Source of the DNA: Malus domestica
Lineage: Eukaryota > Streptophyta > Magnoliopsida > Rosales > Rosaceae
Direction: 5' to 3'
DNA length: 64,000 nucleotides
NCBI RefSeq assembly: GCF_042453785.1
Contig: NC_091674.1
Span: 29,771,501 to 29,835,500, forward strand
The notes under the pieces are model-generated. The model did no database searches. It saw nothing but the letters and a program-made list of their open reading frames with translations, and had not been told where the DNA came from. Shown piece by piece: positions 51,966 through 58,220 of the stretch. Made by a program: the position numbers and the translations under genes. Every line of letters starts with the position of its first letter. Position 1 is the first letter of the stretch.

Positions 51966-52438
51966 GAGGGGAGGAGAGTGAGAGTCTCTTTGTTCGTAGC
52001 AGCACAAAGCTAAATGAGCAAGGTGGAAATATCTCTTCAGTATGTGTGGATGGGATAATGAGAGTGGGGGAGATGATAATGGAAGTTTTTCCATAAACTT
52101 GACCCGAATTGTTTCCATATTGGACCATCGGGTCCATCCATCGTTGGTACAGTTAATAAACTATTTATATCTTATGAGCCTAGCAGTAAAGTGGTGTTGT
52201 TTCTTTTCTCATATTTTTTTATTCAAATATATTTTACATTAGGATGTCGTAGATAATATAAGGATATTTTATATTAAAGCGTAGGAGATTTGGTTTAAGT
52301 CGCTTAATAATTCACTTACAAGTGAAAAGAAAATTCATTAGACTGTAATGTTAGTGTCAGTCAATTTTCTAGCTCTTATTTATGATAAAGAAAAATAAGT
52401 ATTTCTAGTTATCCAAAATGGTGAAGGTTGAAATGTTT
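51966..52438. other. Promoter region of the chloroplast-protein gene
   Basis: Upstream sequence of the minus-strand gene, becoming AT-rich. No other feature is recognised. Confidence 0.45.
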
Positions 52439-52545
52439 TTTTTTTTTTTTTTGAACAAAAGATATTATCTATACCAATAGGTAGGGAGTAGGCCAAGCCA
52501 CACAGTGAATTAGTAATAAAATGTCAAAAACTCTGTATTTGATAG
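52439..52545 (-). mobile_element. SINE-like fragment
   Basis: A long T-run (an A-tail on the minus strand) precedes GAGTAGGCCAAGCCACACAG, which resembles in layout the 3' half of the SINEs at 39,571 and 40,938. No tRNA-like head is seen, so it may be 5'-truncated or unrelated. Confidence 0.4.
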
Positions 52546-53461
52546 CTAAACCCTTTAGCATTTGTCTCTTACTACTACAATTTAGTTGTATTAATTTTGA
52601 TTTGTAAGTGAAGTTTTAAGGTTTGATTCTTACAAAAAACGAATTTGAATCAAATTAATATAGTTAGAACATTGATGTTTATCTCAAGTAAATCGCCCTT
52701 TTTTCTCCAGGAAGCAAATCTCCTTTATTTATATGTATATATTGTAACCTCTGAACCTGAACTTATAATTGGATAGGATGTTATTGGATTTTTAACTCAA
52801 AGTGAATGGCATTGGACTGTGCAGATAAAAAAAAATCCTACTTATGAGTTACGACTGACTTTAGATTTTGTTTGTACCATACTTAAGGCCTCCGTATTTA
52901 GATTTCGGATAAATACTCGGGGGACTCAAATGTAATTATATAATAAATGAAGGGGCAAATATGTAAAAAGGGGATGAGCCTTTAATCTATAAAAGGGTCT
53001 CCTCACCCTCACAATCCTCAGGCTCTGAGATTCAGAGCAAAAACTCTCACCCTCACAATCTTCTCACAAACAGAGAAATACAATATCAGTGTGGACGTAG
53101 CCCAAACATTGGGGTGAACCACGATACATCTTGTGTTATTTACTTTTTTGCAGATTCACGGTCGGATTTACGTTGTTCCAAGACCCCTCCGGTTTTGTGC
53201 ATCGACATTTGGCACCGTCTGTGGGAAACGATACGAAAAGTTGTGTCGGTTCTCTTTCATTATTTCACCTCCGCCGTGAATCTGCAAAATCACAAAAACC
53301 CAAAAAAAAGTGTTATCTCTCTCTCTCATGTGTTCCTTGTCTATATTTTGCTCATTTTTCATCAGCCCAGTCCTCCATCTTCTTCTTTTTCCTTGTCAAA
53401 TCGATGAGCTCCCATTTCACTTGATTCTCTGAATCTCCGACTGATCAGGTGAAACTCTAAG

Positions 53462-54232
53462 ATGGAGTGGACAATGGTGCAGCATCTGGATCTTCGACAT
53501 GTCGGACGCAGCTCAAAACTGTTACAGCCTCATGCTGCTGCCTTTCATCCCCATCAGGCATTCGTCGCCGTCGTCATTGGAAACTACATCATTGAAATTG
53601 ATGCATTGACAGCTCATCTGGGAAAGCTGACATTGAACTTAACGGTCTCTGGTGATTCCGCAGTTGCACAAGCTGTCGTTTGCCAACTATCTGATTTTCA
53701 AGTCTGCAAGCAAAGAAACAACCCCGACCCACCGGCCACCGCCACGCCTCGCAATTACGGCCTAAAGCGCAGACTCACATTGTACAGAGCCTTCAGCGGT
53801 CTGACAAAAAGTAGGCACACCCAGCAGCCCATCAACCCGTCTTCCACCTCCGACATTGAGAGCCAGGCCATTCTTGTCAACTCTGTCAACGAAAATGTCT
53901 CTGAGAGCTACCAAATGACGTTTTTGATGGCGGCGGAGGAAGGCGGAGTTCAGGAGCTGGAGTACTTCAAGAGGCTTGACGACGAGTTCAATAAAGTGGA
54001 CAAGTTTTACAGGTCGAAGGTTGACAAGGTGATGAAGGAAGTTTCGGTTCTTAACAAGCAAATGGACGCTTTGATTACGTTTCGGATCAAAGTGGAGAAC
54101 CCTCAGAGAATGTTTGATTGGTCAAGGGAGATGACTCGCCATGCTTCCGATGCAGCCACCCCACACGTTGCCAGAGCAAGCACCATCTCACACGGTGCTA
54201 AAGCAAACAGTGAGTATACTCATCACCACTGA
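53462..54232 (+). CDS. Chimeric ORF: TWD40-2-like N-terminus fused to PHO1-type SPX domain
   Basis: This is an intronless frame of 256 aa. Residues 1-50 resemble the N-terminus of TWD40-2, a WD40 subunit of the TPLATE endocytic complex (MEWTMVQHLDLRHVGR, LQPHAAAFHP, then a YIIEIDALT end). Residues about 80-235 resemble the later SPX region of PHO1-family phosphate exporters (GLKRRLTLYRAFSGLT, SDIESQ, FKRLDDEFNKVDKFYRSKVD, KQMDALITFRIKVENP). Residues about 52-78 are not assigned. The EXS membrane part and the rest of the propeller are absent. Lack of introns and location inside an LTR element suggest capture through spliced RNA. The ATG is the one expected for TWD40-2. Whether it is expressed is unknown. 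Confidence 0.8.
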   Translation: MEWTMVQHLDLRHVGRSSKLLQPHAAAFHPHQAFVAVVIGNYIIEIDALTAHLGKLTLNLTVSGDSAVAQAVVCQLSDFQVCKQRNNPDPPATATPRNYGLKRRLTLYRAFSGLTKSRHTQQPINPSSTSDIESQAILVNSVNENVSESYQMTFLMAAEEGGVQELEYFKRLDDEFNKVDKFYRSKVDKVMKEVSVLNKQMDALITFRIKVENPQRMFDWSREMTRHASDAATPHVARASTISHGAKANSEYTHHH

Positions 54233-54808
54233 TACGAAGGTCCTCACAGTCGAGGCAGTCGCCGACCTGGATCCCATCTCCTGCGAATACCACGAGCACT
54301 AGTGGAAAACAGGAAGAAGATAAGTTTTCTTACAATATTTCTATTATTATTCTTCTTTGTGTTATCTGCCATCTGCCAAAAGAAAGAGAACAAAGAGGAA
54401 GGAATTATAGGTGGTGGTGCTACCCTTCTTTATGCCTCAAAAGAGTTGGAAAAGTTGGTGACTGCCAACATCGATCAAAAGATAGGTTCCCATTTTCTGA
54501 GAAAGAAAAGCAGAAAACAAAAGTGAAAGCAAAGCAGAAAAAAAACCAAGAAAAAGCAGAAAGCAAAAGAAAGGCTTTCCTCTGCGAAAACATATGGGGA
54601 CATTGCAAAAGTAAGGAATAAACACCCCACCAGAATGATGCGATTTACTTTTCTTGATTTTGAATAGTGTGATTTATTTTTCTTACCTTTCGGAGACATC
54701 TGTATAACCCTATTAGAGGGTAAAAAAAAATGGCAAGGCCAAAATAATGGGCTGGAATGTTATGTGGAGGGCTAAGGCCCATATGCCCAAAAGAGCCAGT
54801 CCCTATGA

Positions 54809-55245
54809 CTCCAAATTTATTCGGCACCCTACCGCTATTATCACCAACCAGGTGATCAAAAGTACGTCCAGTACTCCAAAATTATTCGGCACCCTGCCGC
54901 TATTATCACTAACCAGGTGATCAAAAGTACGTCCAGTACTCCAAAATTATTCGGCAGCCTGCCGCTATTATCACCAACCAGGTGATCAAAAGTACGCCCA
55001 GTACTCCAAAAATTATTCGACAGCCTACCGCTATTATCACCCACTAGGTGATCAAAATTACGTTCAGTACTCCAAGCATCACTCATGTTAATCATACATA
55101 AACATTCATGAGCATCACACATGTCAATCATACATAAACATTCATGAGCATCACTCATATCAACATTCATGAGCATTACTCATGTCAACATCCATGAGCA
55201 TTACTCATGTCAATCAACATAAACATTCATGAGCATCACTCATGT
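54809..55245. repeat. Tandem repeats in the chimeric LTR element
   Basis: Four units with an exact 65-bp period begin at 54,809, 54,874, 54,939 and 55,004 (each with CCAAAATTATTCGGCA and ACCAGGTGATCAAAAG). From about 55,070 a second array of shorter units built on AACATTCATGAGCATCACTC repeats about six times. Both are non-coding parts of the element's interior. Confidence 0.92.
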
Positions 55246-55875
55246 CAATCAGCTTCGAAAGCTTCATTTACAAAGCTCTAGCTTCAAAAGCTTCATTTAC
55301 AAAGCTCCGACTTCAAAGCTTCAGTGCATGGTATACAAAGACCACCTCTAAACAACTACCACTTCGGCTCATACATGGATTGAATTTGAAGTCTCCAGCC
55401 AACAACCTCTATTGACTGAAGACTTGGGGGACTACACTATGTACCATATATTGGGCTTTCACAACTGGGCCTTATGAAAAATACTTGGGGGACTTAGCCC
55501 ATCATTTATGTATTGAGGAGCGAACCCTTATTATATAAAAGGGACTCCCTCACTTTCATTAGAAAGCATCCATCACTTATGTATTGAGGAACGAACCCTT
55601 ATTTTATAAAAGGGACTCCCTCACCATCATTAGAGAGCATCGCCGTCTGTTGAGCAACCGCCTCGCCGCAAGCCGAGCCAAGCAAGACAACATAAGCTAC
55701 AAGCCGAGTAGCCTCGCAACATGTGCTACATCTAGTTGAGCATCATTTCACATTGAGCACCACCTCATATCGAGTATTCAGTTCTAGACGACATCTAGTT
55801 ATTTCGGCCCACACATTGACTGAATTTCAAGTCTCCAGTCAAAAGACTCTCTTGACTAAAGACTTGGGGGACTAC
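55246..55875. other. 3' interior of the chimeric LTR element
   Basis: It has further short repeats (AAGCTTCATTTACAAAGCTC). An LTR-like stretch at about 55,445-55,650 contains two AACCCTTATT...AAAAGGGACTCCCTC copies, preceded by its own GGGGGACTACAC tract. It may be an old LTR of a related element left by recombination. Confidence 0.55.
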
Positions 55876-56139
55876 TGTTTGTACCATACTTAGGGCCTCC
55901 GTATTTTGATCTCGTATAAATACTCGGGGGACTCAAATGTAATTATGTTATAAATGAAAGGGCAAATATGTAAGAAGATGAGGAGCCCTTAATCTATAAA
56001 AGGGCCTCTTTACCTTCACAATCCTCATGCTCTGAGATTCAGAGCAAAAGCTCTCACCCTCACAATCCTCTCACAAACAGAGAAATACAATATCAGTGTG
56101 GACGTAGCCCAAACATTGGGGTGAACCACGATACATCTT

Positions 56140-58084
56140 TGATCGGATCATATTTATATATATTTTTACTTCAAATTCACTCGTCTTTTCTTAGTTAGTT
56201 CCTTACATTTTTGAGCTATTTACGTTATTTTTGTGTTTATAGGATTTGTTATGCAAAGAAAATAAAAATAGCACAAATGAGTTTTAAATAATAAATTCGT
56301 CGAAAATTGCTTTAGTCGTTCTCATTCTGTCATGGATTATTGGTAGAATTATGTCACGGCATAAACAAAAGAAATGGGGAGAGTCGGTCAAAGAGGGAGC
56401 AAGAGAGCATCATGATTTATATTTTTTTTACCTCGTTGACTCCCATATTCTTCACTTCTGAAAACAACAGGAAGCTGCTTTGCAGCTGGAAAGGAAGGAA
56501 TCCAAGGTGGAAACGTGAGGAGGTGGAAGGCAGATGCTGCTTTGGCAGCTGGGGGGCGCATAAAATAATAGGAAAAGCAGCACTTGGCTGCTGGCGGGAG
56601 AGAAAGAGAAACCAGCAGAAACGGAAAGAAATAATAAAAGAAAGAAGAGCAGGACAGGCGGAAAGGAAGACAGAAAATAAAGAGAAAGAAAGGCAGTCAG
56701 AGGGCGCCAGCGAGGCGCAGAAGGGAAGAATACAAAGCAGAAAAGGCGCAGGGAATTGGTGGAAGGCGGAGGGCTGCCCTTTGGGCAGCGTGAAGCTGCG
56801 GAGAGAAAACGCGGGGAGAGATTAGACGGGCTGCCATTGGGCAGCTTGAGAGAGTGGAAGGACAGCAAGACAAACGGCAGGAATGTGAGAAGGCTGCCTT
56901 GCAGCGAGGGAGTCAGTGAGCGAGGGAGTCATTGAGTAGCGTGAGGGGTGGAGAGAACCAGAAACGAGCAGGAGACAGCACGCAGAAAGATAGGCGCTGC
57001 CTTTGGGCAGCGATAGGGCAGCTCAGTGGAAACGCAGACAGAGATCTTTTTCTCTTTCGGTTTAATCTCTCTAAACTTCTATTTTATTTCTATTTTTAAT
57101 AATGTGTAATTAAATTTATTTTGGCTAGAGGTTAATTCAAAGTTATGGATATATTTGTAATATGAATTGATTACCTTCGGTTGTGATTTCATAAGTTGTG
57201 AATTCAATTTACTTATCCGTTCGTATAAAAACTGATTTGTGTATGTTGGTTGAGAGTGCACGCTTAATTTACATGCATGAATTTGATGCTAGAATATAAG
57301 TGAATTTCACCTAATCGTTATGAACTTATTTTCATAAGTAGTAAAGGTTGCTAGTCACAATCACGTTAAGTAAATTCTTGGCAAGAGTATCATGCTTTTC
57401 ATAGTTACGAATGCCTCGTCAATGCTTATAGTTTTCACAAAGTTTAATGATCTTTGATTGTATCTCTATTGTGCTTTTCACGTAGGGGACTTTTGAAGAA
57501 TGTTTTGAATTGTTGTATGCGTTTTTCCGTCCAATTCAATAACTTAAGGAAAACTTGAAGATTAAAAAAGTGCTGTTCACGGTTAATCTGGAGTATTGAG
57601 ATTTACAATTTATTGAAAGAACAACTGAAAATCAATTTAGGTTGCATATGTGTCATGTGTGGAGAAGAACCCTCTAGCTAGTCCGTCATTTATCATTTTA
57701 CCTTAATTTTATGTTTTTGTCAATTCTGTAATTTAGTTAAGTTTAATTTACTTTTCATCAAAACCAAACACCCATCCATTATTAAATTATATTATTTAGT
57801 TAGTTTTCTTTATTGTTAGTCTTTTAATTTAATTTCCGTCCATTTCAGTCCCTAGTGTTTAATTTAATTGTTTTCATTATTTTGAGTCATTTTAAGTGTG
57901 TTTCGAGTTATTAGAGTTTTTAGCCTAATTTTGTGTCCTTGAGTCTTATTTAATATTTTTAAATTAATTTAGAATAGATTAGCAATCCCTCCTAATCCCC
58001 GGCCTAGAACGATACCCTACTTACATCTATACTACAATTGTCAAAAAGAGGGTTTAATTTGTGTGTCAAGTAATTCTCACATCA
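56140..58084. mobile_element. Solo LTR (Ty3-type, about 1.9 kb) nested in the 3' LTR
   Basis: This 1,945-bp insertion begins TGATCGG, ends CACATCA, and is flanked by the exact duplication ATCTT (56,135-56,139 and 58,085-58,089) inside the outer 3' LTR. It has no primer site, gag or pol. The end region (CCCCGGCCTAGAACGATACC, then TTGTCAAAAAGAGGG) looks like large Athila/Tat-type Ty3 LTRs. The purine-rich part at 56,340-57,060 gives a spurious ORF. Confidence 0.85.
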
Positions 58085-58220
58085 ATCTTGTGTTATTTAT
58101 TTTTTTGTAGATTCACGGTCGGATTTACGTTGTTTCAAGACTCATTCGGTTTTGTGCATCAACAGATTTAATTACCTTTTTTTTTTATAGTGATTTACTC
58201 TTAAAAGGGGTAACCAAGTC

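Follow-up and report, generated by a model that had tools for sequence, protein, structure and literature searches.

A chimeric reading frame joined from three host sources inside a non-autonomous LTR retrotransposon of apple

The window analysed here is a stretch of 64,000 nucleotides from Malus domestica (assembly GCF_042453785.1, contig NC_091674.1, positions 29,771,501 to 29,835,500). It harbours an open reading frame (ORF) of 256 codons between the two long terminal repeats (LTRs) of a retrotransposon, and the locus raises the question whether this frame is a young host gene or an accident of the element that carries it. A sequence-only reading had presented it as the in-frame fusion of pieces from two host genes, one similar to TWD40-2 and one encoding a PHO1-type SPX domain, and had considered both a new gene and chance. 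The ORF itself is present as reported (Table 1).

The whole LTR element spans 52869-58164. As described before, it is enclosed by a GATTT duplication, which represents a 5-bp target site duplication (TSD), and its direct terminal repeats begin with TG and end with CA; both features characterize LTR retrotransposons. The two matching LTRs were also recognized correctly, but it had been overlooked that a later nested insertion of 1,945 bp splits the 3' copy in two. The LTR pair differs at 26 of 339 positions (19/264 in the first part, 7/75 in the last part) instead of the about 20 differences mentioned previously, with 26 substitutions versus 0 indels. The primer binding site (PBS) remains putative, judged from sequence likeness, whereas the purine tract claimed together with it is weak, because the bases before 55876 read ACTTGGGGGACTAC and include pyrimidines. 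Among the ORFs in 52600-56100, none besides the chimera exceeds 106 aa, so this range contains no intact gag-pol, in agreement with the earlier statement. The family member L020 contains a stretch with 98.6% identity to the first 146 bp of the nested insertion, so that the insertion may be young.

Table 1. Features of the element and of its cargo (positions in the window)
Feature	Position	Strand	Remarks
Target site duplication GATTT, left	52864..52868	.	matched by right copy at 58165-58169
5' LTR	52869..53207	+	339 bp, TG..CA, TATAAAAG at 52988
Leader, common to family members	53208..53306	+	PBS-like TGGCACCGTCTGTGGG from 53210
Captured 5' UTR exon 1, TWD40-2-like gene	53318..53448	+	94% to C2 locus L013
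Captured exon 2 with start codon, TWD40-2-like gene	53449..53594	+	93% to L013; intron 1 absent
Chimeric ORF	53462..54232	+	256 codons, ORF listing
Start of exon 3, same TWD40-2-like gene	53595..53612	+	exon 3 sequence in L014, L013; intron 2 absent
Third source, 80 bp from C8:22568383	53609..53688	+	74/80 identical; overlaps exon 3 by ACAG
Captured part of exon 1, PHO1-like gene (middle of SPX domain)	53697..54209	+	90% to C13 genes L009/L010, 84% to C16 gene L012
PHO1 intron 1 sequence past splice donor	54210..54230	+	element GTGAGTAT vs gene GTAAGTAT
Family backbone segment	54231..54657	+	siblings share part
Family 3' core	54658..55875	+	tandem repeats: 65-, 36-, 25-, 29-, 71-bp units
3' LTR, first part	55876..56139	+	245/264 identical to 5' LTR
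Nested insertion, solo-LTR-like	56140..58084	.	1,945 bp, TG..CA, ATCTT duplications
3' LTR, last part	58090..58164	+	alignment to 5' LTR
Target site duplication GATTT, right	58165..58169	.	pairs with 52864-52868

When the ORF was used as a genome query, 18 places matched, the window included. At the DNA level, ORF positions 1-133 (codons 1-44) match the host gene at C2 (92%) and C15 (90%), and positions 148-227 match C8 (93%). Positions 236-769 have counterparts in two genes on C13 (90%) and, on C16, in one gene (84%) and one further element (88%). All three parts together occur in the window alone; further copies with the same fusion, which had been envisaged, are absent among the 17 other matches. 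The ORF is thus a mosaic of three joined host sources and not of two, since the C8 piece lies between the two genes named before. The notion of an element that lacks intact gag-pol and carries host-gene pieces holds, but the 5' UTR exon, the intron-derived tail and the family had been missed.

The first source is a WD40 gene, the exons of which, joined manually and with a few residues at their borders filled in, match WD40 models in Pfam. As proposed, this gene supplies the start codon of the ORF, with its captured exon 2. Intron 1 (gene stretch L013 3808-3969) and intron 2 (before 53595) are exactly missing from the element, and the piece therefore derives from spliced RNA. The first 81 residues of the parent protein gave a weak match to coatomer WD40 chains in the PDB (E 0.03 only); 50 residues of this protein are held by the ORF. 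The assignment of the start of the ORF to a WD40 host gene is confirmed, and we refer to this gene as TWD40-2-like. TWD40-2 itself belongs to the TPLATE complex and folds as a WD40 propeller.

At the junction between exon 3 and the C8 piece, the four overlapping bases ACAG are common to both sources. A 601-bp query around the C8 site matched nine places, and the piece was covered only at C8 and in the window. Because a stop directly follows the piece in the ORF's frame at the C8 locus and no frame of 70 aa spans it there, the piece is probably untranslated at its source.

The last source encodes part of an SPX domain (Pfam, E 5.2e-27, residues 85-243), with PHO1-like parents on C13, as expected from the sequence-only reading. 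SPX domains sense inositol pyrophosphates in phosphate signalling. The ORF covers positions 53-215 of the 340 in the SPX profile, and the joined parent exons cover 1-340; in the PDB, these exons matched PHO1 homolog 1 (E 2.2e-23). Upstream of the captured stretch the parents read MKFGKEFSAQ..LLKEI; the ORF has neither the N-terminal helices nor the region of the lysine cluster (KILKK/KIMKK stretch), and a functional SPX sensor was rejected for this reason. A lysine cluster on the SPX surface is described in PMC8717665. Past the PHO1 splice donor at 54210, which was read from sequence alone, 21 nt match the intron, and the stop codon forms where this tail meets the element backbone. Since intron sequence is retained beyond the donor, the PHO1 piece would come from unspliced RNA or from DNA. 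In 54143-54210 the PHO1 exon end looks rearranged compared with the genes, as if it ended in two modified copies of its final ~30 bp; a further template switch is possibly the cause. L009 and L010 (C13:4.43-4.48 Mb) are two closely similar PHO1-like genes located about 37 kb apart, and either is a possible parent.

Searches with the LTR plus leader and with a 173-bp piece of the core returned 4054 and 1844 first-look candidates, respectively, of which 40 were scored in each case, on many chromosomes. The element is a copy of a large family of non-autonomous LTR retrotransposons; from the 1844 unscored core candidates, one to two thousand copies would be a guess at its size. Parts of the same genes, with other end points, are found in several siblings. 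L017 contains exons 1-2 of the WD40 gene, L015 and L016 contain exons 2-3, L011 lacks the WD40 part but has the PHO1 piece, with a 10-bp deletion that causes a frameshift, and short PHO1 remnants are found in L019-L025. The window and L011 share the piece borders, which suggests that the PHO1 piece goes back to one capture that spread later. Other cargo in this group resembles CYP51 (L015; PDB, E 4.6e-9), weakly PTB (L016; PDB, E 0.002), an RRM (L022), LRRs (L024) and a mitochondrial carrier (L025; a match at Pfam's cut-off). In L024 (C8:28.02 Mb, - strand), an open 174-codon frame with LRRs runs into the PHO1 remnant, and L017:3978-9754 shows the order LTR-internal-LTR-internal, like two members in tandem or recombined. 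A description of this apple family was not found in the open-access literature, searched by titles and abstract openings.

To these siblings we added eight members picked without regard to cargo, namely ranks 3-5 of the LTR plus leader search (three) and ranks 2-6 of the 3'-core search (five), which makes them top-ranked and not random. Cargo similar to host genes was present in six of the eight: a C2 domain (Pfam) from several source loci in L026, SF3B6 in L027, with a Pfam RRM match below the cut-off, a MIC10-like piece (Pfam DUF543; PDB gave nothing) in L028, LRRNT_2 (Pfam, below the cut-off) in L029, where the leader matched and the LTR did not, similarity to host sequence in the genome without a Pfam match in L030, and a short-chain dehydrogenase (Pfam) in L033. 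L031 has gene-like frames, two pieces of which had no Pfam match, and the genome search with its cargo was dominated by a repeated insertion and hence uninformative on its genes. L032 was counted as a miss, as no LTR, leader or recognised gene was seen within 2.8 kb. Pfam gave no match either for pieces of L015, L016, L017, L019 and L023 or for one of the two L028 pieces; one of the two L026 pieces matched only Omp28 weakly (0.069), and the second L029 piece only the bacterial bMG1 model (0.005). Not all cargo is unique: that of L027 turns up again at C13:3219228 (93%) and the C2-domain part of L026 at C13:9197340 (81%).

In four of these eight members (L027-L030), pieces that abut in the cargo lie apart at the source, in the same order and on one strand. 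The joined pieces come from C16 in L027 (junction at 867), from C8 (at 314) and C15 (at 1090-1093) in L028, and from C4 in L030 (junction at 520-525). L029 (885-2450) contains five abutting pieces from C16:5754805-5756136, in part C13, three more from C5:39539277-39540575, in part C10, and one piece of a third locus (C15/C2). Judging by their sequence, we read the abutting pieces as putative exons without introns.

Does the open frame bear signs of selection? Compared with L011, the sibling with the frameshift, the window differs at 35 of 443 positions in the PHO1 exon and at 15 of 190 in the adjoining intron and backbone, i.e. 0.079 in both, and the values for LTR, leader and 3' core (0.088-0.121) are above that of the exon. 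Over 148 codons, the changes specific to the intact copy are 6 synonymous and 7 non-synonymous ones, and those specific to the sibling 7 and 10; with these small counts, the non-synonymous share (7/13 and 10/17, versus 0.79 of sites) is below neutral in both copies. For the WD40 part, comparison with the C2 gene gave 8 differences in 131 UTR positions and 10 in 132 coding positions. Pairwise dN/dS to the C13 genes was below 1, with 0.37-0.54 over the 148 codons and 0.46-0.58 over all 170; the shorter count stops at 54142 because the exon end is rearranged, and codons with several changes were scored change by change, which produced a spurious stop in one codon of the C16 gene. Part of this low dN/dS is the C13 genes' own history. 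As a sign of selection it was rejected, because the frameshifted sibling behaves alike (0.37 and 0.52, versus 0.37 and 0.54 in the window) and the adjoining non-coding stretch is equally diverged. Purifying selection specific to the intact frame was not detected against L011 and the C2 and C13 genes; given the small counts, weak selection is possible.

In neutral simulations, the frame stayed open in 31%, 10%, 3% and 0.6% of cases at 0, 5, 10 and 15% indels per substitution, respectively. Neutral survival is not improbable if indels were as rare as in the LTR pair; at 10-15% indels per substitution it is only 0.6-3%, which counts against a neutral reading, as do the higher divergence of LTR, leader and core, the low non-synonymous shares of both copies, the dN/dS below 1 and the length of the frame. 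Among 13 measured members, the longest ATG frame in the cargo has 256 codons in the window versus at most 174 elsewhere, and its top rank has to be seen in the light of the fact that this frame was chosen for notice because it is open. The frame most likely evolved without selection since insertion. The earlier hint at a new gene is not supported, in view of the absence of the fusion from the 17 other matches, the deletion in L011, the equal divergence of exon and non-coding sequence and the chance of neutral survival with rare indels; chance has emerged as the better half of that reading.

The divergences also provide a time order. With substitution rates between 1.3e-8 and 3.9e-9, the LTR divergence (K ~0.081) corresponds to 3 to 10 million years. 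At synonymous sites, the C13 genes have diverged from the C16 gene by 0.21-0.24 but from the element by 0.12-0.14, so that the capture looks younger than the C13/C16 duplication. The insertion in turn looks younger than the capture, because the LTR divergence (0.08) is lower than that between element and genes. The order capture, spread, recombination and insertion fits these values.

Altogether, we consider it very likely that the window contains a copy of a non-autonomous LTR family with pieces of host genes as cargo, that the pieces were joined by template switching and that the in-frame fusion is accidental and unselected. The stretch between the leader and the 3' core would be filled with host-derived pieces when reverse transcriptase switches templates between co-packaged element RNA and host-gene RNAs at short common sequences, and copies would recombine with one another afterwards. 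A spliced TWD40-2-like mRNA, the C8 piece and an unspliced PHO1-like transcript (or DNA) would have met in one copy in this way, with the machinery supplied by an autonomous partner. We infer template switching, the autonomous partner and the lack of function alike. A mosaic formed via RNA is favoured because the matches lie on separate chromosomes, introns are missing, the sources share the ACAG overlap and siblings carry overlapping pieces. Uptake of the pieces as DNA, by break repair or in the manner of Pack-MULEs or Helitrons, appears extremely improbable: it agrees with the intron sequence kept in the PHO1 piece, but not with the exact removal of two introns from the WD40 part, nor with the series of five plus three exon-like pieces from two loci in L029, from which the intervening sequence is absent. 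Moreover, the element has LTRs and 5-bp TSDs, and no inverted repeat pair was found at its left end in a search of 52000-57000. Capture at the DNA level was rejected, since several members hold exon-like pieces that abut with no intron between them.

It is very unlikely that the fusion is a young host gene, with the LTR promoter driving a selected protein for phosphate or trafficking pathways. No constraint is particular to the intact copy, the SPX part lacks the N-terminal helices and the KIMKK stretch, the WD40 part is short, the tail is intronic and the fusion exists in one of 18 places; these points stand against a long frame that starts at a host start codon and is the longest among the measured members, an LTR that contains TATAAAAG, and a stretch from 53011 to the start with no more than two short ATG frames (34 and 6 codons). 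The ORF might also be inert as a protein while its host fragments, which lie in sense orientation, give rise to small RNAs or methylation directed at the parents or the family. The pieces would suit this, as they measure 131-513 nt, are 90-94% identical to the parents and include exact runs above 50 nt, and captured pieces in maize are siRNA sources according to a review (PMC13317346); the sequence itself, however, does not call for such a role, and we regard it as unlikely.

The family as a whole is somewhat more likely than not an exon shuffler, with a cargo slot between constant leader and 3' core that repeatedly takes up spliced host mRNAs, from several sources per copy, which are reassorted between copies. 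If so, it would continually supply the genome with novel chimeric transcripts, and 53462-54232 would be one example that is open. The single ORF is probably inert. Since the WD40 exons and the PHO1 exon differ in extent among copies, one can reconstruct in which order they were captured, exchanged and inserted, and the family offers a datable record of how LTR retrotransposons take up and recombine host RNAs. Frames of such elements can pass as SPX, RRM, C2 or LRR genes in annotations, and the whole family merits proper annotation.

Several known systems are comparable. The 3' internal tandem repeat arrays recall Gypsy TAT/Retand elements (PMC11963269); this is a resemblance only, and no reverse transcriptase was seen in the family members read. 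Like the TRIM elements with gene fragments in Medicago and soybean (30 elements in seven subfamilies; Gao et al. 2016, PMC4717578), the window's element is a small non-autonomous LTR element with 5-bp TSDs and fragments of up to three host genes; unlike them, with their few carriers of 1.2-1.4 kb, its family measures 3-6 kb and has a long 3' core. In a rice survey, 1,318 of 7,043 full-length LTR elements contained non-TE proteins and the captured genes were reportedly mostly under non-purifying selection. Many host genes within LTR elements are common to both cases, but the survey covered whole genomes, whereas the present case is a single non-autonomous family, with few members examined and mosaics of several sources in most of these. 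The closest counterpart is maize Bs1, an LTR element in which, according to PMC13317346, three host-gene pieces are joined in a chimeric ORF that is reportedly transcribed and translated. The window's element likewise has pieces from three sources between its LTRs, two of them genes and the third a C8 locus; introns were removed from the WD40 piece only, and the PHO1 piece retains intron sequence. In contrast to Bs1 as portrayed there, the chimera of the window is known from its sequence, with no constraint detected, and in the siblings of the element the same captures appear with other end points, alongside other genes. The element thus represents retrotransposon exon shuffling of the Bs1 type.
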